This document shows, piece after piece, positions 14,315 to 30,549 of a stretch of DNA of 64,000 bases. The stretch covers positions 1,488,001 through 1,552,000 of the forward strand of contig NZ_CP092107.1 in NCBI RefSeq assembly GCF_029016485.1, written 5' to 3'. The position numbers and the translations under genes are program-made. The stretch comes from Vibrio sp. JC009. Its GTDB lineage: Bacteria > Pseudomonadota > Gammaproteobacteria > Enterobacterales > Vibrionaceae. Within the stretch, counting starts at the first letter, position 1, and the number at the start of each line of letters is the position of its first letter. The notes beneath the pieces are model-generated. The model made no database searches and was not told the origin of the DNA. It saw only the letters and a list, made by a program, of their open reading frames with translations.

Positions 14315-15190
14315 ATGAACCCCATTAAAAAAGTGATTACTGCTATTTTGTCGTTTACACTGTTATTTCTGTTTCCGGTGTTTGCAACAGTAGCCAAAGC
14401 AGGCAGCGCTAAGCCTGTCAGTGTTTACACCAGTATTCTTCCTCAGCGTTATTTTGTTGAGAAAATCGGTGGTGAGCGTGTTGATGTTCAGGTATTGGTA
14501 AGCCCGGGAAAAAGTCCTGCAACGTACGAACCTACGCCGCAACAAGTGATCGATTTAGGTAAAGCCGATGTCTTTTTCAGTATTGGTGTCCCTTTTGAAA
14601 AAGCATTTTTACCAACACTCAAGCAAACTCTGCCATCTCTGAAGATCACCGATACAACGAAAGGAATTCAGTACCGTTCTCTTGTTAAGAAAAACAACAC
14701 GAAAGTGAAAGATCCACATGTCTGGCTTTCACCTCGTCTTGTGAAGATTCAGGCAAAAAACATCTATCAGTCGCTTGTGGATATCGATCCTGAAGGAAAA
14801 GCCGTTTATCAGAAAGGTTATGATCAATTGCTCAAGGAAATGAATGACATTGACCGGATTCTGTCTGATTCTCTGGCTTCTCATAAAGGGAATACTATGT
14901 TCGTATTCCACCCGGCATTCGGTTACTTCGCTGATGATTATGGTCTGAAGCAGGTGGCGATTGAGACCGGCGGTAAAGAACCGGCTCCGGCAAAACTTCA
15001 GCAAATCATTGCGAACGCGAAGAAAGATAATGTAAGCATTGTGTTTGTTCAGCCTGAGTTTTCTCAGAACTCGGCCAGAGCGATTGCACAGGCGATTAAT
15101 GGCGCTGTGGTTAGCCTGAGTCCGCTTAACCCGGATTACATTAATAACCTGATGCATATCGCTGACGCAGTGAAAGGCTCAGTTAGGTAA
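14315..15190 (+). CDS. Cluster A-1 metal ABC transporter substrate-binding protein
   Basis: This 291-residue periplasmic protein has a Sec signal peptide (about 29 residues, ending near AKAG). The fold is of the ZnuA/TroA type. Likely ligands are His135 (DPHVWLSP), His199 (FVFHPAFGY) and Asp274 (LNPDY). The first ligand His of the usual P-H-x-YEPTP motif is Ala69 here (SPATYEPTPQQ). The His-rich loop of true ZnuA is also absent. Together with the Fur-like box this suggests iron or manganese rather than zinc (inference). It is the first gene of an SBP-ATPase-permease operon. Confidence 0.85.
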   Translation: MNPIKKVITAILSFTLLFLFPVFATVAKAGSAKPVSVYTSILPQRYFVEKIGGERVDVQVLVSPGKSPATYEPTPQQVIDLGKADVFFSIGVPFEKAFLPTLKQTLPSLKITDTTKGIQYRSLVKKNNTKVKDPHVWLSPRLVKIQAKNIYQSLVDIDPEGKAVYQKGYDQLLKEMNDIDRILSDSLASHKGNTMFVFHPAFGYFADDYGLKQVAIETGGKEPAPAKLQQIIANAKKDNVSIVFVQPEFSQNSARAIAQAINGAVVSLSPLNPDYINNLMHIADAVKGSVR

Positions 15191-15195
15191 CATTA

Positions 15196-15945
15196 ATGAA
15201 CGAACCCCATATTAGCGTGGAAAAGCTTAGCTTTTCCTATGACAGCAGGAATCTGGTGCTGTCGGACATTAACTTCTCCGTAAGAAGAAATGAAATTGTC
15301 GCGTTCATGGGACCGAACGGGGGTGGTAAAACCACCCTCTTTCGGCTTCTGGCGGGGCTGATCAAGTCCGAGCGCGGAAAGATTGCCATTAACAGTGGTA
15401 ACCGAAGTGCTTCGGAGAACGACAGTCTGGTTGGTTATGTACCTCAGTACGCCCGGTTTGATAAACAATTTCCAATGACTGTGTTTGACGTGGTGTTATC
15501 CGGGCTGGTCAAGTCTTTCGGCTTCTACACAAAAAATGATAAGAAAGCGGCAGACCAGGCGTTGGAATCCATTGGATTAACCTCAATGAAACACCGCTCT
15601 GTGAGCGAGTTGTCTGGCGGACAGGCCCAGCGGATGCTGATTGCCCGGGCATTGGTATCGCCAAAAGAAATCTTGCTGCTGGATGAGCCCACTGCCAATA
15701 TTGATAAAGAAAGCAGTGATCGGCTTAAAGCCCTGATTACTGAATTAAGTCAGTTTCTGACCATCTTGTTTGTCACCCATGATGCCGGTTTTGTTGATAA
15801 CTTAGCGCACCGCTTGCTATGGGTAAATCATACTCTTCAGGAGTTGCCGGAAGGAAGCCATTACAGCCCGTTCGACCCTCTGTCCTGTCATCCGTTTGTC
15901 GGGAAGAAACAAGGTGAAGTACATGGCTTGAAGGTGGCTTTGTGA
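15196..15945 (+). CDS. Metal ABC transporter ATPase
   Basis: This 249-residue ATPase has Walker A GPNGGGKT, signature LSGGQAQRM, Walker B ILLLDEPTAN and switch His VTHDAGFV. It belongs with the ZnuC/MntB-type ATPases of cluster A-1 metal importers. It begins 5 nt after the binding-protein stop, and its TGA overlaps the GTG start of the permease. The C-terminus (after about residue 215) carries a short His-containing tail (GSHYSPFDPLSCHPFVG) that could bind metal, but this is speculative. Confidence 0.9.
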   Translation: MNEPHISVEKLSFSYDSRNLVLSDINFSVRRNEIVAFMGPNGGGKTTLFRLLAGLIKSERGKIAINSGNRSASENDSLVGYVPQYARFDKQFPMTVFDVVLSGLVKSFGFYTKNDKKAADQALESIGLTSMKHRSVSELSGGQAQRMLIARALVSPKEILLLDEPTANIDKESSDRLKALITELSQFLTILFVTHDAGFVDNLAHRLLWVNHTLQELPEGSHYSPFDPLSCHPFVGKKQGEVHGLKVAL

Positions 15946-16784
15946 ACGGATTTATTGAAGCGTTAGCTAACCCCGATGTTCCTTTTATCCGCTATGCCCT
16001 GATTGCAGGGCTGCTATCCAGTATTCCGTTTGGCATTATCGGCTCATTTGTTGTGGTTAAGCGAATGACCTATATCGCTGGTGCTATCAGCCATACCGCT
16101 CTTGGCGGTATTGGGCTCGCGCTTTATCTGAGTACGGTACTGGGTATCTCTTTTATTACACCGATGGGTGGTGCGATGGTTTTTGCGCTGGTCGCGGGGC
16201 TGATCATCAGTCTGACTATCACCCAGACTGATGCACGGGTCGATACTGTGATAGGTGCTATCTGGGCCATCGGAATGTCGTTAGGTCTGATCTTTATGTA
16301 CCTGACTCCCGGCTACCTTGATCCTATGAGCTACCTTTTTGGTAACATCCTTCTGATCTCCAAAGGAAATCTGGTTACCATAGCTGCTCTTAATCTGTTG
16401 ATTACCGGTGTCAGCCTGATTTTCTATAACCAGTTTGTGGCCGTTTCCTTCGACCCGGATTTCGCTAAGTCCAGAAACATCAATATTTCTCTGTTTGAGA
16501 CCTTTCTTATCCTGCTGATTGCTCTGACGGTGATTCTGATGATTTCGCTGGTGGGCATTGTGATGGTGATTGCACTGCTGACGCTTCCTCCTGCCATCGC
16601 AGCTCTGTTTGCCAGGAGGATGAAAACTCTGATGCTGCTATCCAGCGTAATATGTGCTCTGGTTACAACATCCGGACTGATTACCAGCTACCTGCTGGCC
16701 ACACCGACCGGCTCAACAACCGTAATACTGGCGGGGTGCATCTATATTGTTCTCGTGATTTTAAAGCGGTTATTCCGGTTATAA
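15942..16784 (+). CDS. Metal ABC transporter permease (ABC-3 family)
   Basis: This 280-residue inner membrane permease has about eight hydrophobic helices. It begins at a GTG overlapping the ATPase stop (GTGA). ABC-3 family features include the KRMTYIAGAISHTALGGIG segment and the MVVIALLTLPPAIAALFARR-like region near residues 205-225. It forms the channel of the metal importer at 14315-16784. A clean intrinsic terminator follows. Confidence 0.9.
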   Translation: MNGFIEALANPDVPFIRYALIAGLLSSIPFGIIGSFVVVKRMTYIAGAISHTALGGIGLALYLSTVLGISFITPMGGAMVFALVAGLIISLTITQTDARVDTVIGAIWAIGMSLGLIFMYLTPGYLDPMSYLFGNILLISKGNLVTIAALNLLITGVSLIFYNQFVAVSFDPDFAKSRNINISLFETFLILLIALTVILMISLVGIVMVIALLTLPPAIAALFARRMKTLMLLSSVICALVTTSGLITSYLLATPTGSTTVILAGCIYIVLVILKRLFRL

Positions 16785-16842: not shown

Positions 16843-16874
16843 TCTCTTTTGATACTTAACACAGGTAGACACTC

Positions 16875-16888
16875 TTGATAATTATCAA
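16875..16888. promoter_or_regulatory. FNR/DNR-type box
   Basis: TTGATAATTATCAA is a perfect match to the FNR/DNR/NnrR consensus TTGAT-N4-ATCAA and a perfect palindrome (extended by flanking C and G). It lies 87 bp before the Tat binding-protein start and just upstream of a Fur-like box. Confidence 0.75.
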
Positions 16889-16914
16889 GCCAGAGATTGA
16901 TATGTGTGCGTTAT

Positions 16915-16974: not shown

Positions 16975-17982
16975 ATGAGTAAAACAAGGCGTGAGTTTAT
17001 TAGAGATTGTAGTCTGCTTGGTGCAACTGTTGCAGCAGGAAGTTTGTTTCCGGGGTTGGCCTTCGCAACGCAAAACACGCCTCGTAAAGAGTTAACCATA
17101 TATGGCCCTCCGGCAGATCCATCTTTGCCACTGGCTCATGCAGCTGAAAACAACGCCTTGCCGGGACTGGTTAATAATCTTGGTTTTAATATTTACCGTG
17201 ACCCGGATGTACTGAGAACAAACTTTGTTACCGGCCGCTGGGAGATAGCGGGAGCGCCAAGTTATGTGGCGGCAAATCTGCATAACAAAGGAATGAAAGT
17301 TCGTTTGATGAATATCATGACCTGGGGCCTTCTGTATGTCATCTCTGTCGATGGCAGTATAAAGAAAATGGAAGATCTGAAGGGGCAGGAAATTGTTATG
17401 CCATATAAGGCGGATATGCCCGATTTGGTTTTCCAGCATGTGGCTCAGAAGAAGGGAATGGTGCAGGACAAGGATTACCGTCTGAACTATGTATCTACAC
17501 CTTTTGAAGGTCTGCAGTTATTGCTTTCAGGCAGAGTAAAACACGCCGTACTGCCTGAGCCAGCAGCGACAGCTGCCTTGCTAAAAAGCAAGAAAGCAGG
17601 GAAGAAAATGGCTCGTGTTATCAACCTTCAGACGATGTGGGGAGAAGCGACCGGCGGACCTGCACGAATTCCGCAGGCGGGCATGATGGTATCGGATTCT
17701 CTGTTAAATGAGATGCCACAACTGCCTGACCAACTGCACAATTCTTTGCAAAACTCTACTGACTGGGTGGTGAGTAACCCGGCTGATGCCGGACGTTTAG
17801 GTCAGAAATATATGCCTCTGAAGGCACCGGTTATTGAGCACTCCATTCCTTTCTCCAATTTTGCTCTGGTTAAAGCTAAGGATATTCAGCAGGAAATAGA
17901 AGATTTCTTCACCATCCTTGCTGAGTTAAATCCGGGCATTATCGGTGACAAGCTGCCAGGCAGTGACTTCTATCTGGGGTAG
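16975..17982 (+). CDS. Tat-exported TauA/SsuA/NMT1-like ABC binding protein
   Basis: This 335-residue protein starts at an ATG with GGAGGAG seven bases upstream. The N-terminus has a twin-arginine motif (TRREFIR, residues 4-10) and a hydrophobic segment ending LAFA, so it should be exported folded. The body resembles nitrate/sulfonate/thiamine-precursor binding proteins (GPPADPSLPLAHAAEN, GRWEIAGAPSYVAANL, a VLPEPAATAAL hinge region). The ligand cannot be predicted. Tat export suggests cofactor or metal binding before export (inference). It is followed by its permease and ATPase and by nnrS. Confidence 0.8.
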   Translation: MSKTRREFIRDCSLLGATVAAGSLFPGLAFATQNTPRKELTIYGPPADPSLPLAHAAENNALPGLVNNLGFNIYRDPDVLRTNFVTGRWEIAGAPSYVAANLHNKGMKVRLMNIMTWGLLYVISVDGSIKKMEDLKGQEIVMPYKADMPDLVFQHVAQKKGMVQDKDYRLNYVSTPFEGLQLLLSGRVKHAVLPEPAATAALLKSKKAGKKMARVINLQTMWGEATGGPARIPQAGMMVSDSLLNEMPQLPDQLHNSLQNSTDWVVSNPADAGRLGQKYMPLKAPVIEHSIPFSNFALVKAKDIQQEIEDFFTILAELNPGIIGDKLPGSDFYLG

Positions 17983-18066
17983 ATTTTATTTACTTGAATG
18001 AGTCTGGTTGGAGAATACGTATCCGGGCTCTGTTGCTATTTGTTAACACAAAGGTGTGGAAGGTCT

Positions 18067-18837
18067 ATGGGTTGCCTTAGACAGATTGGTCATTATCTGT
18101 GGAGTGGCTTTGGCGCTCTGGCCAGTATCCTGGTCTTTTTTGCTGTGTGGGATTACGGGAGCCAGGTCTATGGTGATTTTATCCTGCCTTCCCCGCAAGC
18201 TTCCTTAAAGCGGCTTTGGCAACTGTCCGAACAGGGGGTTGCGGCTGAATTTCTGTGGGTAACTACCTGGCGAGCTCTGCTGGGTTTTGGTTTCTCTATT
18301 TTTGTTGGCAGTTTGCTGGGAACGCTGGCCGGACTTTCCGCAACGCTTTCAATGGCTGTCCGTCCTCTGGTTACTATACTGATCGGCATTCCGCCTATTG
18401 CCTGGATTGTACTCGCATTACTGTGGTTTTCCGGTGATGCCAGCGTGCCTATTTTTACCATTACGGTAACCGCCCTTCCTATCACTTTTGCTGCCGGTGT
18501 ACAGGGAGCCCGGACTCTGGATGTGCGCCTGACAGAGATGGCGCATAGCTTTTCAGCATCAAGGTGGATGACATTTTACGATGTACATCTGCCTCATATT
18601 CTTTCTTATCTGTTTCCTTCCTGGGTCACGGCTCTGGGCACATCCTGGAAAGTGGTGGTGATGGCTGAACTTCTGGCAAGTAACAGTGGGGTAGGTGCAG
18701 GCTTGGCTGCTGCACGGGTCAACATAGACACGGCCGCTACCATGGCTTGGATTATTGCCATTGTTGTCGTTCTTTTGGTTGCCGAGTATGCCATCTTCGA
18801 ACCTTTTAAACGTCGGGTGGAGAAGTGGCGTGACTAA
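18067..18837 (+). CDS. TauC/SsuC-like ABC permease
   Basis: This hydrophobic permease has about six helices and a BPD-type coupling loop (LTEMAHSFSASRWMTFYDVHLP). I prefer the ATG at 18067, with GGAAGG just upstream; an in-frame ATG at 17998 lacks a ribosome site and would add 23 residues. It belongs to the nitrate/sulfonate/taurine importer class and overlaps the downstream ATPase start by 8 nt. Confidence 0.82.
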   Translation: MGCLRQIGHYLWSGFGALASILVFFAVWDYGSQVYGDFILPSPQASLKRLWQLSEQGVAAEFLWVTTWRALLGFGFSIFVGSLLGTLAGLSATLSMAVRPLVTILIGIPPIAWIVLALLWFSGDASVPIFTITVTALPITFAAGVQGARTLDVRLTEMAHSFSASRWMTFYDVHLPHILSYLFPSWVTALGTSWKVVVMAELLASNSGVGAGLAAARVNIDTAATMAWIIAIVVVLLVAEYAIFEPFKRRVEKWRD

Positions 18838-19591
18838 CAGCAATAAACTGAGCATAACCGGGCTAAGCCACGCCTTTGATAAAAAGCTGGTGCTAAGCGA
18901 CATCAATCTGAATCTCAATTGCGGGCAGGTGGTCGCCATTGTCGGCCGTTCCGGTTGTGGCAAATCAACGCTGCTTAATCTGGTTGCCGGCCTGATTGAT
19001 GTCGAAACCGGTTCAATTGAGAACGGCTTTAGCACCACATCAATCCTGTTTCAGGATACCCGTTTGCTGCCCTGGAAAAACACGCTGGATAACATAGGCT
19101 GGGGGATGAAAGCAAAGGGGGTTACCAGAAAACAGCGGGATAAGGTAGCTGCGGAGCTTGCACAGGAAGTCGGGCTGGTTGAAGAGGATCTGGACAAATT
19201 CCCTCACGAGCTGAGTGGCGGCATGTGCCAGAGGGTGGCAATTGCCCGGTCCCTTGCCGTAAAACCTGAGTTGCTTCTGCTTGATGAGCCATTCAGTGCG
19301 TTGGATATCGGTCTTAAAGAGGAGCTGTATACACTTTTGTGCGATGAGATAGAAAGGCGCAGTTTGACGGTTCTCTTTATTACCCATGACTTGAATGAAG
19401 CGGTCAGGCTGGCGGACCAGATTGTCGTGCTGAGTGATAATCCCGGCCGTCAGGTCTATACCTGCCATTGCGATGTTCCGAGAGCTTGCCGGGATCAGGA
19501 TTACCTTTACTCTACAACTATGCAGCTTCTTAAGGAAGACAGGGTTAAACAGGCATTTCAGACAGAAGGTAAAAATGAATATGGCCGTTAG
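18830..19591 (+). CDS. TauB/SsuB-like ABC ATPase
   Basis: The protein has about 253 residues from a GTG at 18830 that overlaps the permease stop and follows a GGAG motif. Walker A is GRSGCGKST, signature LSGGMCQRV, Walker B LLLLDEPFSALD, and the switch His is in ITHDLNEAVRLAD. It energises the transporter with the Tat-exported binding protein at 16975. It overlaps nnrS by 17 nt, which implies co-translation and a functional link between this importer and NnrS. Confidence 0.87.
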   Translation: MTNSNKLSITGLSHAFDKKLVLSDINLNLNCGQVVAIVGRSGCGKSTLLNLVAGLIDVETGSIENGFSTTSILFQDTRLLPWKNTLDNIGWGMKAKGVTRKQRDKVAAELAQEVGLVEEDLDKFPHELSGGMCQRVAIARSLAVKPELLLLDEPFSALDIGLKEELYTLLCDEIERRSLTVLFITHDLNEAVRLADQIVVLSDNPGRQVYTCHCDVPRACRDQDYLYSTTMQLLKEDRVKQAFQTEGKNEYGR

Positions 19592-20771
19592 TTTTTTTGA
19601 CAGTAAATCGCCACTTTATGCCTGTGGCTTCAGGCCATTCTTTTTATTGACGGCGTTTTATGCGGTGATACTTGCTGTATATAACGTTTTGTTTAGCGGC
19701 CGGTTAATCTCAGACTTTCCCGGAGCTGCAGAAATCTGGTATCTGCATGAACTGGTATATGGCGTTGGTGGTGCATTAATCGCAGGATTTTTGTTAACGG
19801 CATTTCCGGCCTGGACTGATACTGAACGGGTTGATTCCGGACGTCTTATGTTACTGGTGAGTTTATGGGGCATAAGCCGGTTATTTGCTCTGGCGGTGAG
19901 CTATTTTGGCATGCTTCCTGTGACCCTGATTAACAGCGCATTTTTGCTGATGTTACTGGCGGTGTTGTTTCATCCGATTACCGACAAGAGGCAGCAGCGT
20001 CATCGGATATTCTATTATCAGCTTCTGCTTCTTTTTACTGTGACCTTAATCAGCTACTTCTTCCTTCTGAGCGACGGGTTGCAACAAGCTAAGCCATGGT
20101 TACAAGTCTGTGGCGGTATTTTTCTTATCATCGTTCTGACCATTCTGAGCCGGATGTCTATGGTTGTTGTAAATCATGCGCTGGAAAAGTATCAAGTGAC
20201 GGATGAAAGGTTTCTGGCAAGGCCACCAAGACGTAATTTTGCTATCTGGATCATTCTGGCTTTTCTGGCGGCTGACCTGTTTCTTCCTGGCAGCTCAGCT
20301 TCAGGCTGGCTGGCACTGGCCTGTGCGGCTGCGCTGCTAAATATTCTCAACGACTGGCATCTGCCTAAGGCGTGGCGCGATCTCTACTATCAGGCGCTTT
20401 ACCTTTTTTATCTGCTTATCGCAGGCGGCTTCGTTGCCATAGGAATAAATAACATTTCCGGCGCGGGTGATATTTATCATTCCGTCTACCTGCTGTTTAT
20501 CTGCGCAGCAGGCATTGCGGCTTTGGTGATTATGCTGGTGGTCGGGCAAAAGCACACAGGTTATACGCTCTCTTATCAAGGGCCAGTACTGCTGATGATT
20601 CTTTCCGTGCTGGGGCTGGCATTGGCTCTATCGGGGCCGGTGGCCGGACTCTATTCACTGAAAATGGAGCAGTCGCTTATAGCGGTGTTTATATCGCTCA
20701 GCTTTTTGCTTTATTTGCGTTTTTTCTGGAGCAGATATCACCGTCGCCGGGTCGACGGTAAGCAAGGGTAA
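19575..20771 (+). CDS. nnrS: NnrS family membrane protein
   Basis: This 398-residue polytopic protein has about 12 hydrophobic helices. It starts at the ATG at 19575 (GAAGGT upstream), inside the end of the ATPase gene. The NnrS signature GFRPFFLL is near residue 20, and conserved His residues occur in the helices (WYLHELVYG; VVNHALEKY). NnrS proteins are haem- and copper-containing inner membrane proteins that relieve nitric oxide stress, including damage by dinitrosyl-iron complexes. Its placement with Fur- and DNR-type boxes fits a role at the iron-NO interface. Confidence 0.87.
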   Translation: MNMAVSFFDSKSPLYACGFRPFFLLTAFYAVILAVYNVLFSGRLISDFPGAAEIWYLHELVYGVGGALIAGFLLTAFPAWTDTERVDSGRLMLLVSLWGISRLFALAVSYFGMLPVTLINSAFLLMLLAVLFHPITDKRQQRHRIFYYQLLLLFTVTLISYFFLLSDGLQQAKPWLQVCGGIFLIIVLTILSRMSMVVVNHALEKYQVTDERFLARPPRRNFAIWIILAFLAADLFLPGSSASGWLALACAAALLNILNDWHLPKAWRDLYYQALYLFYLLIAGGFVAIGINNISGAGDIYHSVYLLFICAAGIAALVIMLVVGQKHTGYTLSYQGPVLLMILSVLGLALALSGPVAGLYSLKMEQSLIAVFISLSFLLYLRFFWSRYHRRRVDGKQG

Positions 20772-20852: not shown

Positions 20853-21770
20853 ATGAAAAAATTGATTATCGCTTCTGCTGTTGTTTCTGCATTGGCTTTT
20901 AATGCTTATGCTGCAGAAGAAACAAGCCAAAAGGCAAAACAGATGAAAATGCCTGCCGGGCCTGTTCACGGTTCCACTGGTATGGTTTTCCCCGAAGGAA
21001 AGCTGGCAACCAACCTTAAAACGGTTTTTGTGGAAAAGAGTGATCTTTATAGTGGCAACGACACTATTACCAATAGCGCTAACAAAGAGATGACGTCATT
21101 AAAAAGCAACGCAATTATCCGCTATGGTTTAGGTTCAAATTTTGATGTGCGTATGCTTGTTCCCTATGTAGATAAATCTATGTCAACCAAGATGGCGGAC
21201 TACGATAATTCCGGGCTTGGGGATGTTCGGGTACTTGCCAGATACCAGCTTACCTCTCCGGCACTGGGTGACAGCTTTTTCAGTACAGTTGGTATCGGTG
21301 TAGAACTGCCAACGGGCTCAACGGATAAAGATAACCTATCTGATGGCTTGCAAAATGGTGACGGATCTACGGATCCTATTATTGAAGTTGGTATCACCAA
21401 GCCACTGCCTAACTCTCGTATAGATTTTTCTGCGATGTATATCTTTAATCAGGAAGGCGACAACAACTATGAGAAAGGTGACCAACTGACATATAACTTA
21501 GGTTATAGCTATCTGGTTCATCCTAAGTTTATGCCATCTATTGAACTGAACGGTACATTAGCTGATGAAAACGTTAAGAATGGCACTGAAGCCGTCAACT
21601 CCGGTGGTCATGAGATCTTCCTGACACCAGGTTTCAGTTCAGGTATTACCAAGAAGTTTAAACTGTTTGCCGGTGTCGGTATTCCTGTATACCGCGATTA
21701 TAATGACAGTACAGCCGGTACATTAGGCACAGATTACCGTGTTACAACTAAGCTTAGCTACGCTTGGTAA
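20853..21770 (+). CDS. Outer membrane beta-barrel protein, Phenol_MetA_deg-like
   Basis: This 305-residue protein has a Sec signal peptide (cleavage after AYA) and alternating amphipathic strands ending in an aromatic residue (LSYAW), as in outer membrane barrels. The pattern (GLGSNFDVRMLVPYV, GLGDVRVLARYQL, VGIGVELPTGS) resembles the 'MetA pathway of phenol degradation' family of putative outer membrane channels. A short KMKMPAGPVHGST segment with Met and His follows the signal peptide. It lies 81 bp after nnrS and before a terminator, so it probably ends the transporter/NnrS operon. It may supply the outer membrane route for the same substrate (inference). Confidence 0.75.
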   Translation: MKKLIIASAVVSALAFNAYAAEETSQKAKQMKMPAGPVHGSTGMVFPEGKLATNLKTVFVEKSDLYSGNDTITNSANKEMTSLKSNAIIRYGLGSNFDVRMLVPYVDKSMSTKMADYDNSGLGDVRVLARYQLTSPALGDSFFSTVGIGVELPTGSTDKDNLSDGLQNGDGSTDPIIEVGITKPLPNSRIDFSAMYIFNQEGDNNYEKGDQLTYNLGYSYLVHPKFMPSIELNGTLADENVKNGTEAVNSGGHEIFLTPGFSSGITKKFKLFAGVGIPVYRDYNDSTAGTLGTDYRVTTKLSYAW

Positions 21771-21900: not shown

Positions 21901-22635
21901 ATGCATTATGCCCTGAATATACCGCTTGATAATAATCAAGCTAAGGAAGATCGGTTGTCTGGCTCCATTATTTCTCTGCTGAATGAAAAGCAGAAACAAC
22001 AGTTATTCTCGACGAGAAAAGAGATTTTCTGTGCTGCCGGGCATTCGTTGTTTAGTCGTGGTGACCGGGCTGAACATATGTATCTGATTGAAAAAGGGAA
22101 GGTTTCACTCTATCGCCTGATGCCAAGTGGTGATGAAAAACTGTTTAAGGTTTTTCTTGCCGGCGGTGCCATTGCCGAAATGGCGATGTTTATGTCTCCC
22201 CTGGAATATCCGATGAGTGCCCGTGTTGAGCAGGATTCTGTGCTTTGGGAGTTTAGCCATGATGATGTGGTTAGTCTGGTTAGTCAGTCACCCGATCTTT
22301 CGTTAAAGGTGATGGAGCATATGAGTAACAGTGTTCACAAGCTAATGAATACCCTAAATATCCTGACTCAGCTAAATGCTAACCAAAGGCTGGTAATGAA
22401 ACTGGCTGAAATATATCGTGAGCAATTACCGCAAGAGAACAAGCTTTGCCTGCCGGTAACGAAAAGGCTGCTGGCCTCTCAATTGGGTATGAAGCCTGAA
22501 ACCCTGTCCAGGGTGATAAAAAAGCTGAAAACTGAAGGCCATATAGCCGAGAGCGGTCATCACCTGGCTCTGATTGATATTCCCTCTTTATGCAAGTCAG
22601 TTGATCTTACCCCGGATATTTTTGCTGCATCCTGA
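21901..22635 (+). CDS. Crp/Fnr family regulator, DNR/NnrR type
   Basis: This is a cyclic-nucleotide-binding-fold regulator with a C-terminal winged helix (VTKRLLASQLGMKPETLSRVIKKL). It lacks the N-terminal Cys cluster of FNR, so it should not carry a 4Fe-4S cluster; the DNR/NnrR type senses NO through haem or related means. The ATG at 21901 has no ribosome site. An in-frame TTG at 21955 has AAGGAAG just upstream and would give 226 residues, a normal length. A TTGAT-N4-ATCAA box (21926-21939) would then lie in the leader, suggesting autoregulation. It lies between nnrS and the four-gene cluster it may control. Confidence 0.85.
   Translation: MHYALNIPLDNNQAKEDRLSGSIISLLNEKQKQQLFSTRKEIFCAAGHSLFSRGDRAEHMYLIEKGKVSLYRLMPSGDEKLFKVFLAGGAIAEMAMFMSPLEYPMSARVEQDSVLWEFSHDDVVSLVSQSPDLSLKVMEHMSNSVHKLMNTLNILTQLNANQRLVMKLAEIYREQLPQENKLCLPVTKRLLASQLGMKPETLSRVIKKLKTEGHIAESGHHLALIDIPSLCKSVDLTPDIFAAS
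21926..21939. promoter_or_regulatory. FNR/DNR-type box at the 5' end of the regulator gene
   Basis: TTGATAATAATCAA matches TTGAT-N4-ATCAA. It lies inside the gene if the ATG at 21901 is used, but upstream of the alternative TTG start at 21955. Confidence 0.5.
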
Positions 22636-22758: not shown

Positions 22759-22785
22759 TGAACAGATAATTGCTGGGATTGGTAT
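22759..22785 (+). repeat. 27-nt dispersed repeat, copy 1
   Basis: The 27 nt beginning TGAACAGATAATTGC and ending GGGATTGGTAT occur again, exactly, in inverted orientation at 28930-28956. This copy lies immediately upstream of the FNR/DNR-type box at 22798. Confidence 0.85.
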
Positions 22786-22797
22786 AAATATATGTGG

Positions 22798-22811
22798 TTG
22801 ACAATAATCAA
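22798..22811. promoter_or_regulatory. FNR/DNR-type box of the four-gene cluster
   Basis: TTGACAATAATCAA matches TTGAT-N4-ATCAA with one change and lies 101 bp before the GTPase gene. A CRP-like palindrome, TGTGAT-N5-ATCACA, is at 22856-22872, but its spacer is one base too long for a standard CRP site. Confidence 0.65.
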
Positions 22812-22911
22812 GCACCTCCTTGTTACTAATCGGTAATAATTCTCAATAACATTTTTGTGATATGAAATCACAGGCTATTACTTGAAATAGTTGTCTGGAG
22901 CTAAGAATAAA

Positions 22912-23607
22912 ATGAGATTTATAACCATAGCAGGGCCTCCTTCGTCAGGAAAAACAATGGTGCTTATCCATCTGATAAAGCTCCTGCAAAAAGACAGTAT
23001 TAATGTTGCTGTTGGCAAAATTGATTGTCATCAGACGTCAGATGGCAAGTTATTTAAAGAGAAATTAGACATTCCTGTTGTCGTTGGCATAAGCGATTAC
23101 GTCTGTCCGGACCACTATGGTGCGGTGAACGCAGAAGAAATCTTCCGCTTTGGCCGGTTGCATCATGTGGACATGACAATGGTAGAAACTGCCGGGCTAT
23201 GTCACCGGTGCGCTCCAGCGATAAAAGACTGCCTGGCAATCGCAGTGGTGGATTGTGTTAGTGGTATTGATACTCCGCAAAAAATCGGACCCATGTTAAC
23301 GACGGCAGACGTCGTTGTTATTACCAAAGGAGATATGGTTTCTCAGGCCGAAAGGGAAGTGTTCAGGAGCAATGTTTTAGAGGTCAATCCGACAGCAAAA
23401 GCCATTGAGCTTAATGGATTAACCGGTATGGGGGCGTTAAGTCTAAAAAGGCTGGTTCTGGACGCTAAATCTACTCAGTCCTTAAGTGGCATGGAGCTAA
23501 GGCATGATATGCCTTCTGCAGTGTGTTCTTACTGTGAAGGTGAAACAAGGTTGGGTCTTGAATATCAGATGGGGAATGTCATCAAGATGGATGTGCAAGA
23601 AGTATGA
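22912..23607 (+). CDS. HypB-like P-loop GTPase with CxxC motifs
   Basis: This 231-residue SIMIBI-class nucleotide-binding protein resembles HypB/UreG/CobW metallochaperones. It has Walker A GPPSSGKT (8-15), a switch-type KIDCHQTSDG (36-45), VETAGLCHRC (91-100), base-recognition TKGD (138-141) and a C-terminal CSYC (205-208). Ten Cys residues in total, with two CxxC pairs, suggest metal or Fe-S handling. No hydrogenase or urease genes are nearby. It starts at the ATG at 22912 (GGAG at 22897); an in-frame TTG at 22891 is possible. Its TGA overlaps the next ATG. It is the first gene of a four-gene cluster of unknown function. Confidence 0.78.
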   Translation: MRFITIAGPPSSGKTMVLIHLIKLLQKDSINVAVGKIDCHQTSDGKLFKEKLDIPVVVGISDYVCPDHYGAVNAEEIFRFGRLHHVDMTMVETAGLCHRCAPAIKDCLAIAVVDCVSGIDTPQKIGPMLTTADVVVITKGDMVSQAEREVFRSNVLEVNPTAKAIELNGLTGMGALSLKRLVLDAKSTQSLSGMELRHDMPSAVCSYCEGETRLGLEYQMGNVIKMDVQEV

Positions 23608-24383
23608 ATATAGAAGAAATTAAAATCATATCCGGACATGACAAAAGTGGTAACAGAGAAGCCGTTGATGAGCTGGTTATCAGAAGAGGGGACGTTATTA
23701 TTCTGGCCGGTCCGACCGGTTCAGGAAAAAGTCTGCTTCTTTCTGATCTTGAACAGCTGGCTAATGGTGATTCCCCTTCTGGAAGACAGGTACTAGTGAA
23801 TGGTGAGCAGATCGACCCGCTGGATGTGCAGATAACCGCGTCACTTTCACAAAATATGCATTTTATGATGGATTTAGATGTAGGCAGTTTTATTCGTCTG
23901 CATGCAAAAAGCCGGAATATAAAAGATGAAGCGATAACTGAAAAGATTTTGGATTTGGCAAACAGCTTAGCCGGTGAGCCTTTGTCTGCCCGTTCCAATC
24001 TGACCTCATTAAGTGGCGGGCAATCACGGGCTCTGATGATTGCAGATACTGCGCTTATAAGCAATGCACCTATTGTGCTGGTGGATGAAATCGAGAATGC
24101 AGGGATAAATAAAACCAAAGGGATAGAAATTTTGGCATCTGAAGGAAAAATGGTGCTGATCGCGTCTCATGATCCAAACCTGATAATAACCGCTCAGAAA
24201 AGGGTCATTATGAAAAACGGCTCTATGTCGAAACTTATTATATCTGATGACACAGAGCGGGAACACTTAAAATACTTTCTGAAAATGGACGGAATTATTG
24301 AAGAGTTCAGAGAAAACCTCAGACATGGAAATAAGCTGGATAAAAACACGCTTAAGTTTTTACAAGAAAATATAGGTGCATAA
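23604..24383 (+). CDS. ABC-type ATPase without a membrane partner
   Basis: This 259-residue ABC ATPase has Walker A GPTGSGKS (36-43), signature LSGGQSRAL, Walker B IVLVDEIENAG and switch His in IASHDPN. The Walker B Asp is followed by the catalytic Glu (VDEIE) but not by the usual DEPT. The last 50 residues are a charged extension. No permease is encoded in the cluster, so it may act in the cytoplasm, as SufC or some chaperone ATPases do. It overlaps the GTPase stop (ATGA). Confidence 0.78.
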   Translation: MNIEEIKIISGHDKSGNREAVDELVIRRGDVIILAGPTGSGKSLLLSDLEQLANGDSPSGRQVLVNGEQIDPLDVQITASLSQNMHFMMDLDVGSFIRLHAKSRNIKDEAITEKILDLANSLAGEPLSARSNLTSLSGGQSRALMIADTALISNAPIVLVDEIENAGINKTKGIEILASEGKMVLIASHDPNLIITAQKRVIMKNGSMSKLIISDDTEREHLKYFLKMDGIIEEFRENLRHGNKLDKNTLKFLQENIGA

Positions 24384-24384
24384 T

Positions 24385-25233
24385 ATGCAAAAGAATCAGA
24401 TTTATATTTCTATACCAGTTAATGCTGCAAGGGGCGTATTAATTAAGGCTAAAGAACTCTGTCCAGATTCTGAAGTATTTAATTCAAGAAAAAAATACTA
24501 TTCGGATGACCTAATGTATCTGGAAAAAATCAAAGCAGGAAAGCTTGATGAGGTTCCCGATATCCTGGTCACTATTCGTCCGGAATTTCGTTGGCAGAAA
24601 GATCAGATTATTAATAGCCAGGCGCTTGATGATGAGTATCAGTATGATATCGATAGTGAACTGAAGGTGAAAAATATTCTCGATGACAACTGGATTTTAA
24701 AGCCTGTTTTTATTATGCCTCTGGTTATTTTTTATAACAAAGATATCGAAAATCCACCTGAGTCCTGGAGTGATCTGCTTGATGAACGTTTTAAAGGCAA
24801 GATCGCTACCACAGATGAGGCGACGCCTCCAGCAGCCTTGCTAAAACGCTTCTTTAAACAGACGAAAGGCGAAGAAGGGGAAGCGTTTGTAGAAAACAGT
24901 GTTAACTACATAGGGCTGCCTATTGATGTTAACAGAGCGGTGTCACGCAAAGAGTATGATATCGGAATTATGCCGCTCTCGTTTGCTATGTTCTCAAAGG
25001 ATAATGCAACCGGAATCTGCTGGCCAAAAGAGGGAGCGCTGTATCTTACCCAGGTTATGCTGATGAAAAAAGGCTATACGGAAGACAGCAAAAAAATAGC
25101 GGATTATCTGGTGTCCTATGAAGCGCAAAAAATGTTTAGCGAAGGTGCCAGTTTTATTCCTGTGAGGCCGGATATCGAAGTGCCAAAACTATATGCTGAA
25201 AATAACCAGAGCCTTCTTAGCTTATCTGAATAA
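24385..25233 (+). CDS. Binding-protein-like protein without signal peptide
   Basis: This 282-residue protein resembles the periplasmic binding proteins of Fe3+/polyamine ABC transporters (WILKPVFIMPLVIFYNKDI, PPESWSDLLDERFKGKIATT, and a C-terminal DYLVSYEAQKMFSEGASFIP). The N-terminus MQKNQIYISIPVNAARGV has no Sec, Tat or lipoprotein signal. The ATG at 24385 follows AGGTG; an in-frame ATG at 24376 would add three residues. A cytoplasmic binding-protein fold beside an ABC ATPase and a GTPase but no permease is unusual. It may bind a metal or small ligand inside the cell (inference). Confidence 0.75.
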   Translation: MQKNQIYISIPVNAARGVLIKAKELCPDSEVFNSRKKYYSDDLMYLEKIKAGKLDEVPDILVTIRPEFRWQKDQIINSQALDDEYQYDIDSELKVKNILDDNWILKPVFIMPLVIFYNKDIENPPESWSDLLDERFKGKIATTDEATPPAALLKRFFKQTKGEEGEAFVENSVNYIGLPIDVNRAVSRKEYDIGIMPLSFAMFSKDNATGICWPKEGALYLTQVMLMKKGYTEDSKKIADYLVSYEAQKMFSEGASFIPVRPDIEVPKLYAENNQSLLSLSE

Positions 25234-25258
25234 CTGAAAACTATTTCCGGAGAGAAAA

Positions 25259-26284
25259 ATGCAACAAGAATGGATAAAAATCAGAGACAGTTTCAAAGTT
25301 AAGGATGTGAGAACATTGCGGGGCAATTTCTTACCTTCTTTATTAAAACAGGCGCAAAGAATTAGTGAGGGTGAAGGATTATGCGTCGTACAGAGCTTCG
25401 AACCAATTCCGCTCTATTCAGCGCTGGAAGATCTGGGGTTTGAAAACTATACGGATAAAGTTGCTGATGATGAATACAGGGCTTATTTTTATCGCCGAAG
25501 TGTAAAGGAAGCGACCTACCCGGAGGGATTAGACGTGCCTCTAAAGCCAACGGCTATTGTTAACTTCAACCATGTGAGCAATAAGTTAGCTGATGTTGTG
25601 GTTAATTTCTGGGATCTTATCTGGGGGCGGGAAGATACGGCAATTGATATGAGAACCCGCCTTTTGCTCTCTCTTGCGAATGGTGTTGGTGCCGGCCGTA
25701 TGCGACAGGCCACCCGGGAGCTAATTAAGGCTTATTCACTGGGCGTAACCGTGCAAGAGTTTGATGAGTTGTTTGAGATGTTTGCCTGGAATCAGGGGGC
25801 AGGTTATTTTGCCTCAGAGATTAGCCCCTCTTCGCTGTTTGCAGCCTATAAGCTGATAAAAATGCAGGAAGAAAAAGGGATGGAACGCAGTGAGGTTGTC
25901 CGGGATCTGATGGATAAATTCGGTGAAGATAACCCGGATGTCAGTACTTTCTATAAGATCCCAAAGTCAAAAAACAGTGTAAAAAAGAGTGAACCTGTTT
26001 TATCGAGCGAAGATGAAATCTTTGCTGAGCATGCTAAAGAGCAATCCGTTCCGGAGATAAAGCAGGTAAAAGCGGAAGATAAAATCGCAGACGTTATCAC
26101 TCAGTATCCGTTTCTTAAAGAGATACTGATAGCCAGGAATAAACTGTTTGCTAACCTGAACAATCCGGTTGCGTTCCGGACCGTTGGTAAGTTCGCACGC
26201 CTTTCCGACGTTGCCAGGGTGTCCGGGGATGATGTTAATGAGCTTCTCGCTTTTATCAATCAGCAAATAGAGGTAAACAGTTAA
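25259..26284 (+). CDS. DUF2249-like / carboxymuconolactone decarboxylase-like / DUF1858-like fusion
   Basis: This 341-residue soluble protein has three parts. Residues 1-85 resemble DUF2249 (GEGLCVVQSFEPIPLYSALEDLGFE). Residues about 90-225 look like an AhpD/carboxymuconolactone decarboxylase helical domain (RLLLSLANGVGAGRMRQATRELIKAY) but lack the CxxC redox pair. Residues about 265-338 resemble DUF1858 (DVITQYPFLKEILI, then LNNPVAFRTVGKFARLSDVA). DUF2249 and DUF1858 modules commonly occur near NO, hybrid-cluster or anaerobic respiratory genes. It is the last gene of the cluster, 25 nt after the previous stop. The function is unknown. Confidence 0.7.
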   Translation: MQQEWIKIRDSFKVKDVRTLRGNFLPSLLKQAQRISEGEGLCVVQSFEPIPLYSALEDLGFENYTDKVADDEYRAYFYRRSVKEATYPEGLDVPLKPTAIVNFNHVSNKLADVVVNFWDLIWGREDTAIDMRTRLLLSLANGVGAGRMRQATRELIKAYSLGVTVQEFDELFEMFAWNQGAGYFASEISPSSLFAAYKLIKMQEEKGMERSEVVRDLMDKFGEDNPDVSTFYKIPKSKNSVKKSEPVLSSEDEIFAEHAKEQSVPEIKQVKAEDKIADVITQYPFLKEILIARNKLFANLNNPVAFRTVGKFARLSDVARVSGDDVNELLAFINQQIEVNS

Positions 26285-27830: not shown

Positions 27831-28172
27831 ATGAAAAAAATTCTTATAGCCGCAGCTCTGTTTATGTTCTCTGCTTTATCATTTTCAGCAACAAGCAGTT
27901 ACCACAACACAAAAACGCTCAGAACCGAGGGGTACGCCACTAAGCAGCAAGCTTATCAATCCGGTTTTGATTTGGCAGATAGTCTGCAAACCATGTCTGA
28001 AAAAGACCTGAAATGGAAGTTTACAGTGACTGACTCTTCAGCCAGGAAGTTTAAGGTAACCGATACTATGGTGACGGTTCAGGAATTTGCTAAGGTCCGG
28101 GACCAGATTCAGTACAGAGCCGTGGTTTTGGTGAGTTACCAGTATACAGTCCATGAGAGTAGCCATAACTAA
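27831..28172 (+). CDS. Small secreted DUF3316-like protein, paralogue 1
   Basis: This 113-residue protein has a signal peptide (MKKILIAAALFMFSALSFSA) and a beta-rich mature domain. The family pattern is YHNTKTLRTEGYATKQQAYQSGFDLADSLQTMS, and the C-terminus is YQYTVHESSHN. It is the most divergent of four paralogues in this window and lacks their strong codon bias. It should be periplasmic or secreted; function is unknown. Confidence 0.78.
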   Translation: MKKILIAAALFMFSALSFSATSSYHNTKTLRTEGYATKQQAYQSGFDLADSLQTMSEKDLKWKFTVTDSSARKFKVTDTMVTVQEFAKVRDQIQYRAVVLVSYQYTVHESSHN

Positions 28173-28487
28173 CAAAAATGGTTTATTGGGCGGATATTGG
28201 GTTGATGTATTTTTAGCGCATCGATATCCGTCTGATACGATTTCCGCCATTTCAACACTTTTTAGCGATAAATTTTTGTAAAAGAAACTCAAATCTAGCA
28301 CTGAATCCCTCCATTTATATACCTTTAAATTAAACACTTACGCCAATTTATAGTTTTGCTGAATGTAAATTTATAACCTTTTACTATCCACTTGTGCAGT
28401 ATGGTGCCATGATTTAACCGTGTTCAGGACAACCGGTAACAAAAACCGATTGCAAGCAAAGAAATCAAATCTATTTGTGAGGTTATT
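28173..28487 (+). promoter_or_regulatory. Intergenic control region of paralogue 2
   Basis: This 315-bp stretch holds no gene. Its distal part (28361-28413) contains a block closely shared with the region upstream of paralogue 3: CCTTTTACTATCCA, then TTGTGCAG, then GGTGCCATGAT. A shared promoter or leader element is likely. The proximal part is AT-rich with no feature I can name. Confidence 0.55.
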
Positions 28488-28829
28488 ATGAAAAAGTTAA
28501 GTGTACTAACTGCTGCTCTAATTCTTTCCGCTTCAGCGATGGCGGCAACAGAAACGGTTTACAACCATTCAGTACTAAAAACAGATGGTTTTGCGACTAA
28601 ACAAGAAGCTTACAATTCAGGTTTTGATGTTGCAGACGACCTGAAAGCTATGTCTAACCATGAGCTGAAGAAAAACCTGTCTGTATTCGAGACTTCCGCA
28701 AAACGCGTAACTATCGATGACACTGTTGTGACTGTTGAAGAATTTGCTGAAGGCCGGGACGCTATCCAGTACCGTGCGAATGTTGATGTGAACTACCACT
28801 ACACAGCAACCGATCACGATCATAGCTAA
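28488..28829 (+). CDS. Small secreted DUF3316-like protein, paralogue 2
   Basis: This 113-residue protein has a signal peptide ending AMA. The mature part is closely similar to paralogues 3 and 4 (ETVYNHSVLKTDGFATKQ, DVADDLKAMSNHELKKNLSVFETSAKR). It ends YHYTATDHDHS, a His-rich tail. A good GAGGT ribosome site precedes ATG, and a terminator follows at 28881-28916. The function is unknown. Confidence 0.8.
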   Translation: MKKLSVLTAALILSASAMAATETVYNHSVLKTDGFATKQEAYNSGFDVADDLKAMSNHELKKNLSVFETSAKRVTIDDTVVTVEEFAEGRDAIQYRANVDVNYHYTATDHDHS

Positions 28830-28880
28830 TACTAACAGCGGCGATCTCCTACTTAGAAGGGAGTACCTCTTTTAGACAAC

Positions 28881-28916
28881 TAAAACCCGTTTCAGTGATT
28901 ACTGGAGCGGGTTTTA
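28881..28916 (+). terminator. Terminator of paralogue 2
   Basis: A long stem (TAAAACCCGTTTCAGT with ACTGGAGCGGGTTTTA, two wobble pairs) lies 50 nt beyond the stop and ends in TTTTA. Confidence 0.75.
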
Positions 28917-28929
28917 AACTATTTCTCTA

Positions 28930-28956
28930 ATACCAATCCCAGCAATTATCTGTTCA
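28930..28956 (-). repeat. 27-nt dispersed repeat, copy 2 (inverted)
   Basis: This is the exact reverse complement of 22759-22785, beginning ATACCAATCCCAGCAATT. Confidence 0.85.
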
Positions 28957-29033
28957 CCCTTATCAATTCCCGATTCTCATCGCTATCCGGTTAAATAAAC
29001 CACTGCAAACTGTTTCTTTTTCCTCATTAGCCC

Positions 29034-29182
29034 CTCGTTCCCATGCTCGCGTGGGAATGCATGCCGTGGCTGAAGGCGCGTGCGTAACACACTGAGCGAA
29101 AAGAAATTAAGTTCAGTGGAAGTATAAACTCAGGCTGGTGGTTTTGAGCCTGATATGCATTCTCACGGAGTGTGGAAACGAA
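29034..29182. repeat. Hairpin-ended dispersed element, copy 1 (decayed)
   Basis: It begins CTCGTTCCCATGCTCGCGTG and ends with TGGAAACGAAG. The left end folds as TTCCCAtGCTCGCGTGGGAA. The right end has TGCATTCTCACGGAGTGTGG, decayed from the copy at 37107-37258. Internal stretches (GGCTGAAGG, AACACA-TGAG-like) match copy 2. Confidence 0.75.
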
Positions 29183-29658
29183 GGTTTGAACTCATGAGAA
29201 ACAACCCCTCCCTGCCTCCCCTTCGATGTTACTTCTTCGAAAATCCGGCCTTTTGAGGCTAAGGGGAGGAGCATTCTTTGACTCCTTAAACTTGTGTATA
29301 AGAGTCAGGCTGCAAGCTTGAAAGTACGCAGAGATTTAAACAGACAGCTTTCCCTGCCTCTGTATAGCGTGTGGAGCTCACCGGGTAAGCTAATAACTTC
29401 TGTATAGAAGTCCTGGCTGAACCAGTTTTCGTGCCCGGGCAACGGCATAGGCATAACTTGTGAAAATGCATTCAGAGTTAGTTATTTGGGAGGTGTATTT
29501 GTTTCTGCTTTCCCCGCTCTTCCCGATGCAATGCCTTTAAACTCTCAAATTCAACGATTTTAGTTATAAATATTCATAAAAGAACCTTAATCTTTAACTA
29601 GTGATATTCTGTTTATATATATTAAAAACAGTGAGTTAAGGTGTTTTATAATTTCCGT

Positions 29659-29711
29659 GAATGTTAATTTACAACCTTTTACTATCCAGTTGTGCAGCAA
29701 GGTGCCATGAT
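29659..29711 (+). promoter_or_regulatory. Promoter-like block shared with paralogue 2
   Basis: This block (GAATGT-AATTTA-AACC, then TTTTACTATCCA-TTGTGCAG, GGTGCCATGAT) nearly repeats 28361-28413, at a similar distance from the start codon (about 75 nt). TACTAT could be a -10 hexamer. Confidence 0.6.
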
Positions 29712-29784
29712 GCACTCGTCTTCAGGAACGCTGGTTTTCAAATCAGCAAAATGAAAAATTTAATATCTATCTTGTGAGGTTATC

Positions 29785-30123
29785 ATGAAAAAACTAACTG
29801 TATTAGCAACTGCTCTTATTCTTTCTGGTTCAGCTCTGGCATCTACAGAAACTGTTTACAACCACTCAGTACTAAAGACTGACGGTTTCGCAACAAAACA
29901 AGCAGCTTATAACTCTGGCTTTGATGTAGCAGACGGCCTTGAATCAATGTCTAACCACGAACTGAAGAAAAACCTGTCAGTATTTGAAACATCTGCAAAA
30001 CGCGTAACTGTTGATGACGCTGTAGTAACAGTAGAAGAGTTCGCTGCTGGCCGCGGTGATATTCAGTACCGCGCAAATGTAGAAGTAAGCTACCACTACA
30101 CAGCAACTGACCACGACAGCTAA
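29785..30123 (+). CDS. Small secreted DUF3316-like protein, paralogue 3
   Basis: This 112-residue protein has a signal peptide ending ALA and mature sequence STETVYNHSVLKTDGFATKQ. It is almost identical to paralogue 4 and uses strongly preferred codons, suggesting high expression. TTGTGAGGTTATC precedes the ATG. Periplasmic or secreted; the function is unknown. Confidence 0.82.
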   Translation: MKKLTVLATALILSGSALASTETVYNHSVLKTDGFATKQAAYNSGFDVADGLESMSNHELKKNLSVFETSAKRVTVDDAVVTVEEFAAGRGDIQYRANVEVSYHYTATDHDS

Positions 30124-30210
30124 TTCCGAAGGCAGAGATGACTCTGCCCGGAACAATCAATATTAAAACTATTTGTAAGTAAGAATTAAAAATTATCTTG
30201 TGAGGATATC

Positions 30211-30549
30211 ATGAAAAAACTAACTGTATTAGCAACTGCACTTGTACTTTCTGGCTCAGCTCTGGCAGCTACAGATACCATTTACAATCACTCAGTACTA
30301 AAAACGGATGGCTTCGCTACAAAGCAAGCAGCTTATAACTCTGGCTTTGATGTTGCAGACAGCCTTGAGTCAATGACCAGCCATGAACTGAAAAACAACC
30401 TGTCAGTATTCGAAACATCAGCAAAACGCGTAACGGTTGATGATGCTGTAGTAACAGTAGAAGAGTTTGCAGCGGGCCGTGGTGATATTCAGTACCGTGC
30501 AAATGTAGAAGTAAGCTACCACTACACAGCAACTGACCACAACAGCTAA
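30211..30549 (+). CDS. Small secreted DUF3316-like protein, paralogue 4
   Basis: This 112-residue tandem duplicate of paralogue 3 lies 87 bp downstream, with the same signal peptide and a mature domain differing at only a few positions (for example DTIYNHSVLK and SMTSHELKNN). It shares the ribosome-site context TTGTGAGGATATC. It is probably co-transcribed with paralogue 3 and is followed by a hairpin at 30561-30588. Confidence 0.82.
   Translation: MKKLTVLATALVLSGSALAATDTIYNHSVLKTDGFATKQAAYNSGFDVADSLESMTSHELKNNLSVFETSAKRVTVDDAVVTVEEFAAGRGDIQYRANVEVSYHYTATDHNS

Follow-up and report, generated by a model that had tools for sequence, protein, structure and literature searches.

What do a UreG/HypB-like GTPase, an ABC ATPase that has no permease and a binding protein that bears no export leader do when their genes are joined in one tight run? 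The question is raised by a locus of Vibrio sp. JC009 (NCBI RefSeq assembly GCF_029016485.1), located in a stretch of 64,000 nucleotides of contig NZ_CP092107.1 (positions 1,488,001 to 1,552,000), which was analysed as a whole and is referred to here as the window. The conserved core of the locus is the pair of GTPase and ABC ATPase, often accompanied by the binding protein; a fourth gene in the run, encoding a DUF2249-DUF1858 protein, and a nearby gene for NnrS are local additions. The trio is a real soluble system that recurs in a range of anaerobic bacteria, some of which are likely to employ it under nitrosative stress, and it is best read as serving metal or cofactor handling, a function that we infer from its relatives and neighbours. 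In its specific form this reading has, in our estimate, a probability of about 0.5: the three proteins would act together as a single soluble machine for a metal ion or metal-containing cofactor in the cell, switched on by nitric oxide (NO) or nitrosative stress.

The four genes occupy 22912-26284 on one strand (Table 1). A preliminary description of this DNA had placed four tightly coupled genes here, and both the place and the coupling were confirmed: the start of the ABC ATPase gene overlaps the end of the GTPase gene (ATGA at 23604), 1 base separates it from the binding-protein gene, and a further 25 bases precede the DUF2249 gene. All four frames are open and intact, which speaks against pseudogene-like fragments. 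The GTPase open reading frame (ORF) opens at 22891 and ends at 23607, with a likely ATG start at 22912, where aligned relatives begin. As a unit of four, the set was rejected. The cluster of the closest relative (31.5 kb of genome G982 covered) contains no DUF2249 gene, and at the cut-offs used the DUF2249 protein was rare in genome samples, with 1/150 in the family, 1/198 among Bacteroidota-type and 5/199 among Bacillota-type genomes.

Table 1. Genes and candidate regulatory sites in the window, with the gene run itself given first.
Feature	Position	Strand	Basis
G3E-type GTPase (UreG/HypB-like), 231 aa	22912..23607	+	Pfam cobW 4e-13; UreG/HypB profile matches; 14-member alignment
ABC ATPase without permease, 259 aa	23604..24383	+	Pfam ABC_tran 1e-12
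Binding-protein fold (SBP_bac_6), 282 aa, no export leader seen	24385..25233	+	Pfam SBP_bac_6 7e-28
DUF2249 protein, DUF1858 at C-terminus, optional partner	25259..26284	+	Pfam DUF1858 2e-11, DUF2249 1.5e-5
DNR/FNR-like box TTGACAATAATCAA, 100 bases before the trio	22798..22811	+	One base off published half-site
Exact DNR-type box CTTGATAATAATCAAG, 5' end of Crp/Fnr ORF	21925..21940	+	Motif scan
Exact DNR-type box CTTGATAATTATCAAG, before importer genes	16874..16889	+	Motif scan
Tat-type periplasmic binding protein, MSKTRREFIRD leader	16975..17982	+	Weak NMT1 / phosphonate-binding Pfam matches
Importer permease (BPD_transp_1)	17998..18837	+	Pfam
Importer ATPase (taurine/nitrate type)	18842..19591	+	Start by eye; ORF opens 18755
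NnrS membrane protein	19581..20771	+	Pfam NnrS 7e-63; start by eye, ORF opens 19434
Outer-membrane-barrel-like protein (Phenol_MetA_deg; presumed location)	20853..21770	+	Family match
Crp/Fnr-family regulator	21901..22635	+	No FNR-type cysteine cluster by eye

The genome holds a second trio elsewhere, and the GTPases of both copies were used in searches. That of the window was found in 4/227 genomes of the genus Vibrio at E 1e-40 and in 28/398 Bacillota-type genomes at E 1e-50; that of the second copy, at E 1e-25, was found in 1/274 genomes of the class, its own, and in 29/199 Bacillota-type genomes (a sample overlapping with the 398), 14 of them with close matches (E < 1e-80) and 15 with diverged ones only (36-43% identity). 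A class-level search around one short-copy genome covered 15 genomes only. Of 8,000 candidates in a single search at E 0.001, 7,576 scored as relatives of the GTPase, and these may include other G3E GTPases. The trio is also present in a Fusobacterium record (L046, NZ_CP084075.1); this record of Fusobacterium vincentii is listed as a plasmid, but at 2.1 Mb it looks more like a misfiled chromosome.

Neighbours were surveyed at 44 loci, which gave 40 rows. L085, L087, L094, L146 and the second copy in L081 were left out of the counts by an ORF filter or a 'TK' text test, and their maps carry no label for the hybrid cluster protein (Hcp). Labels were best BLAST matches to clusters named by eye, with ten members and some others checked against Pfam. 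Fifteen rows are of a long type, in which the binding protein has 392-421 residues; eight have a long ABC ATPase and no such long binding protein; twelve have a short ABC ATPase, as in the window; one is cut by a contig end; and in four diverged rows an Fe-S protein replaces the binding protein (one member checked). The ABC partner is adjacent to the GTPase in 35 of the 36 non-diverged rows, and 27 of the 36 have a labelled binding protein no more than 3 kb away, so that the co-occurrence expected of a real system was found, across phyla, for the two NTP-dependent proteins and often for the third. In the diverged rows (L092, L093, L095, L106), which form a sister group in the GTPase tree, the GTPase adjoins an ABC ATPase and the Fe-S protein, which carries PPGKNCGLCG.

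Within 9 kb, the neighbours differ by type. Hcp was labelled in 8/15 long rows and in 0/25 others, the window included (three Hcp were confirmed as Prismane). NitT/TauT importer parts occur in 8/12 short rows, FecB/FecC-type genes in 5/8 long-ABC and 2/12 short rows, FecB in 2/15 long rows, and DUF364 in 4/8 long-ABC rows. Other metal-type neighbours are ZnuA in the window and in Fusobacterium, CbiM in L113 and an ArsP_2-type gene by the second copy. In L091, a 135-residue protein with a LysR-type helix-turn-helix (8882-9286), which resembles the N-terminal domain of ModE, lies immediately ahead of a short copy. In a tree of GTPases from 47 rows, the window falls in a 16-row short-copy clade (95/99), nearest to Desulfoplanes, and the second copy groups with a spirochaete row (100/97). 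Because the two fall in different groups, the tree, which carries a long-branch warning and has three long branches in the window's clade, suggests that this genome acquired its copies separately.

The GTPase carries a P-loop, CPDHY, ETAGLCHRCAP, TKGD and a C-terminal CSYCxGE, and the TKGD motif and two CxxC pairs ascribed to it earlier are indeed present; some copies elsewhere read SKGD. In an alignment of 14 chosen members, C65, H68, C97, C100, C205 and C208 are invariant (14/14), and with them the CPDH motif and both CxxC pairs. Pfam matches it to cobW/HypB/UreG (4e-13), and profile matches include UreG (4hi0, 5xkt) and HypB (2hf8, 2wsm, 4lps). Because its scores miss both curated cut-offs, those for HypB (TIGR00073, 40.9 against 121.2 bits) and for UreG (TIGR00101, 38.5 against 204.2 bits), we assign it to neither. 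Kinship with the two lies in the G3E GTPase sequence, the P-loop, TKGD and a Cys-Pro motif; the differences are the wide shortfall in score, the extra CSYCxGE and the partnership with an ABC ATPase and a binding protein. The CPH motif of UreG is a nickel site, and when CPDH is aligned with it (5xkt, 4hi0) the C and P columns coincide and the H falls after a gap. Metal binding by the GTPase would fit these motifs. No hydrogenase or urease client was recognised by eye among the window ORFs, for which no family search was made; L041, a long-copy locus, has NiFe-hydrogenase-like genes, again by eye. Source names often call the GTPase relatives 'Ni2+-binding GTPase' and the binding protein 'Fe3+ transport system', labels that this analysis does not support.

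Walker A, LSGGQ, Walker B and H-loop motifs were read by eye in the ABC ATPase, which is 86% identical to the L113 protein; the latter is 50% identical over 250 residues to that of the second copy. It lacks the N-terminal extension of the long copies. Pfam tests of seven such N-termini for DUF1858 gave one match below the cut-off (L080, E 1e-4), two weak ones (0.041, 0.11) and four without a match. The proposal that this ATPase has no membrane partner holds for the run, which contains no permease, but about 3.3 kb upstream of the trio (~16975-19591) a NitT/TauT-type importer brings its own permease and ATPase. A soluble ABC ATPase without a permease is likewise found in SufBCD, as SufC (PMC9164220); in contrast to SufC, the window ATPase is adjoined by a GTPase and a binding-protein fold, and a Pfam scan of the partners gave no SufB or SufD match.

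The binding protein shows no hydrophobic leader by a crude Kyte-Doolittle measure, in keeping with the earlier view that it is not exported. Its best 14-residue mean in the first 45 residues is 1.23, whereas the window's Tat-type leader reaches 1.66 and its ZnuA-type leader 2.60; scores were 0.34-1.48 for 11 trio binding proteins and 1.53-3.06 for 6 importer binding proteins, the gap being narrow between a long copy in L078 (1.48, start uncertain) and a Tat-type protein (1.53). Where tested, the long copies have DUF1858 fused to the binding protein at the position that a leader would occupy; in the window it is fused to the DUF2249 protein instead. The nearest solved chain is 4r6y, a 2-aminoethylphosphonate-binding protein (E 1.3e-8). 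FbpA and 2-aminoethylphosphonate-binding proteins share its SBP_bac_6 family; it differs from these in showing no leader, in not keeping the iron-binding tyrosine pair and in adjoining a GTPase, and a ferric-binding role of the FbpA type is unsupported, the pair not being kept. In two Vibrio genomes the long binding proteins end in CSGGCCS or CNSGGCCK (L010, 4158-5420, minus strand; L041, 9111-10376, minus strand), tails that are absent from the other ten aligned.

In the fourth protein the DUF2249 match (1.5e-5) lies below the cut-off, and the domain matches 40/40 aligned relatives at E 0.01. The CMD part once assigned to it was not recovered by Pfam (0/40 relatives at E 0.01, 0/2 at E 10), and that name rests on labels from one source. 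A search with the DUF2249 core at E 0.001 gave 1,862 relatives; two of the five Bacillota-type genomes that carry the protein, G522 and G580, also carry a short copy of the trio.

A link to NO comes from candidate operators. The DNR consensus is CTTGATnnnnATCAAG, and GTAACnnnnGTTAC is the NO-linked motif of HcpR2 (PMC1274295). Exact CTTGATnnnnATCAAG occurs at 2 sites in the 64-kb window, where shuffles give 0.00 expected, and once in L113; L113 and a paralogous module in the window genome have similar boxes before matching genes. Exact GTAACnnnnGTTAC occurs at 7 sites in 5 of the 15 long-copy loci (0.05 expected), with none in the other 10 and none in 28 other loci (0.20 expected). Its distance to the first trio ORF is 77-104 bases in L046, L079, L080 and L150 and about 380 in L078. 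It precedes both the trio and hcp in L080, and a second site in L150, at 12652, lies within the hcp ORF. L076, L147, L148 and L149 have no exact HcpR2 site, though Hcp and Crp/Fnr genes are present. Because no FNR-type cysteine cluster, which supplies the ligands in FNR, was seen by eye in the Crp/Fnr regulator of the window, we call it DNR-like. Between the box before the trio and the trio start lies a palindrome, TGTGATATGAAATCACA (TGTGAN7TCACA, 22856-22872), which was not used; its spacing is odd, and it was not seen in L009, L010, L113 or L041.

How might the three proteins work together? The binding-protein domain would hold the cargo, or a ligand of it, in the cytosol; the GTPase would bind metal via its CPDH and CxxC sites and hand it over with GTP hydrolysis; and the ABC ATPase, in the manner of SufC, would power a conformational change of the complex in place of a permease. 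Cargo would pass from binding protein to client, driven by two nucleoside triphosphatases (NTPases), an idea suggested by UreG and HypB, in which a nucleotide cues the handing-over of nickel, and by SufC, a soluble ABC ATPase that serves cofactor assembly. In the window the trio may be paired with an entry route (barrel-like protein, Tat-type binding protein, permease and ATPase) and with NnrS, and the DUF2249-DUF1858 protein may be an optional helper. The analysis itself shows that the genes are conserved, which domains they encode, that no leader could be recognised and that operator-like sites are present; the complex, its metal cargo, the direction of transfer, the client and the NO signal are all parts of what we infer. 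The machine first proposed for this locus is supported in part: GTPase, ABC ATPase and, often, the binding protein recur together in other phyla, in metal-transport and nitrosative-stress neighbourhoods, but neither the DUF2249 protein nor NnrS is constant.

Several observations weigh against this account. Phosphonate and pyridoxal phosphate are the ligands in solved structures related to the binding protein, and the YY of iron-binding 1y4t, its iron ligand pair, is YF in the profile and SF in the window. Because importer neighbours differ in kind, no single cargo is indicated, and because the Hcp, NitT and FecBCD rows each fall in about three lineages of the tree, raw neighbour counts overstate independence. 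Nine of the 36 non-diverged rows carry no binding-protein label within 3 kb, Pfam matches nothing in the third ORF of L157, 7 of the 15 long rows have no Hcp within 9 kb, and the loci were found via the GTPase, so that sets without one would be missed. The set had been described as lying beside NnrS and a DNR-type regulator; NnrS and a DNR-like regulator are present in the window, but NnrS was found in 0/14 Bacillota-type genomes with the GTPase and was rejected as a constant partner. The trio's own box, TTGACAATAATCAA, departs by a single base from the DNR half-site as published; a wider pattern covering all three boxes has 0.02 expected matches and was written after the sites were seen; and TTGAN6TCAA, with 3 found against 1.74 expected, is not significant. 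FNR binds a like box, and the regulator could be FNR or DNR. A broader version of the metal-handling account is more tentative, and we would sooner doubt than assert it: the trio may be a general cytosolic cargo machine of anaerobes built from importer parts (a non-exported binding protein, a membrane-free ABC ATPase and a G3E GTPase replacing the permease), which would be called up together with NO-stress regulons to restore or replenish metallocofactors and would have spread by gene transfer, reaching this Vibrio twice.

The best-surviving alternative, itself unlikely in our view, is a sensor or switch, in which the cytosolic binding protein would sense a small molecule. Its signal would reach the Crp/Fnr regulator through the GTPase and ABC ATPase, aided by DUF2249/DUF1858 proteins, much as has been suggested for DrpA/DrpB in the nitrate respiration of Thermus. 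A Crp/Fnr gene does lie within 9 kb in 8/12 short and 5/15 long rows, haloarchaea induce DUF2249 genes during denitrification (PMC11218638), and DUF2249 and DUF1858 build DrpA/DrpB of Thermus, proposed nitrate sensors in a nitrogen-oxide context (PMC6282519). In DrpB, DUF1858 comes first and DUF2249 is present twice, and the accessible text of PMC6282519 mentions no GTPase-ABC pair with DrpA/DrpB. Against a sensor, the DUF2249 protein is not a constant partner, and in two long copies from Vibrio an Rrf2 gene takes the place of Crp/Fnr; one may also argue, as a matter of reasoning, that two NTPases of metallochaperone and transporter type would be a costly sensor.

Somewhat less probable again is a maturation or repair factor dedicated to Hcp or to another NO-handling iron-sulfur enzyme. 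The Hcp genes near the long trios, and the published operator before both trio and hcp in L080, would fit such a role, but no Hcp lies within 9 kb in any of the 25 other rows, the window among them, and E. coli is not known to need a set of this kind for making Hcp. That the trio is a worn-down importer, its ATPase still serving a permease and its binding protein merely bereft of a signal, is very improbable: the domains are importer-like, importers lie nearby and the leader test is crude, with L078 close to a Tat-type protein, but the two sets of leader scores separate, the window importer has its own ATPase, DUF1858 occupies the leader position in long copies and the GTPase partner would go unexplained.

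Upstream of the trio on the same strand, at 14315-16784, lie a ZnuA gene (Pfam-checked) and two further genes of its kind (by eye), and L113 has a TonB receptor at a place comparable to that of the barrel-like protein. In G982, whose GTPase is identical to that of Vibrio sp. HA2012, genes for a TonB receptor, a similar importer (subunits 65-79% identical) and NnrS (45%) lie downstream of the short trio and on its strand. The window genome contains a second module of importer, NnrS, barrel, regulator and a DUF2249 protein 89% identical to the first, with no trio within; the second trio, of the long type, lies some 6 kb beyond, accompanied by an Rrf2 regulator and by an exporter of ArsP_2 type. 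The second DUF2249 gene is immediately followed (L009, 15400-18607) by a further NitT/TauT importer that comes with two cupin-like proteins and has a DNR/FNR-type box of its own. Downstream of the run, the window encodes four similar small secreted-type proteins in a row (27831-30549, plus strand; 112-113 residues, MKK leader, 'KTDGFATKQAAYNSGFDVAD' kind).

Searches of an open-access library found no description of the trio, subscription papers not being covered; the accessible text of two NO-response leads (PMC12915319, PMC5701242) contains no trio. The nearest precedent among metal-chelation loci is that of DUF364 (Dhaf4260), in which DUF364 adjoins ABC importers (PMC2954201), as it lies beside the pair in the four rows above; the difference is that the word GTPase is absent from the main text of that paper. 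The neighbours of the hybrid cluster protein operon have been called hard to interpret (PMC13056359). If the metal-handling account is true, metallocofactor handling would have a further route, soluble and run by two NTPases, and the hybrid cluster protein would gain a recurring partner.

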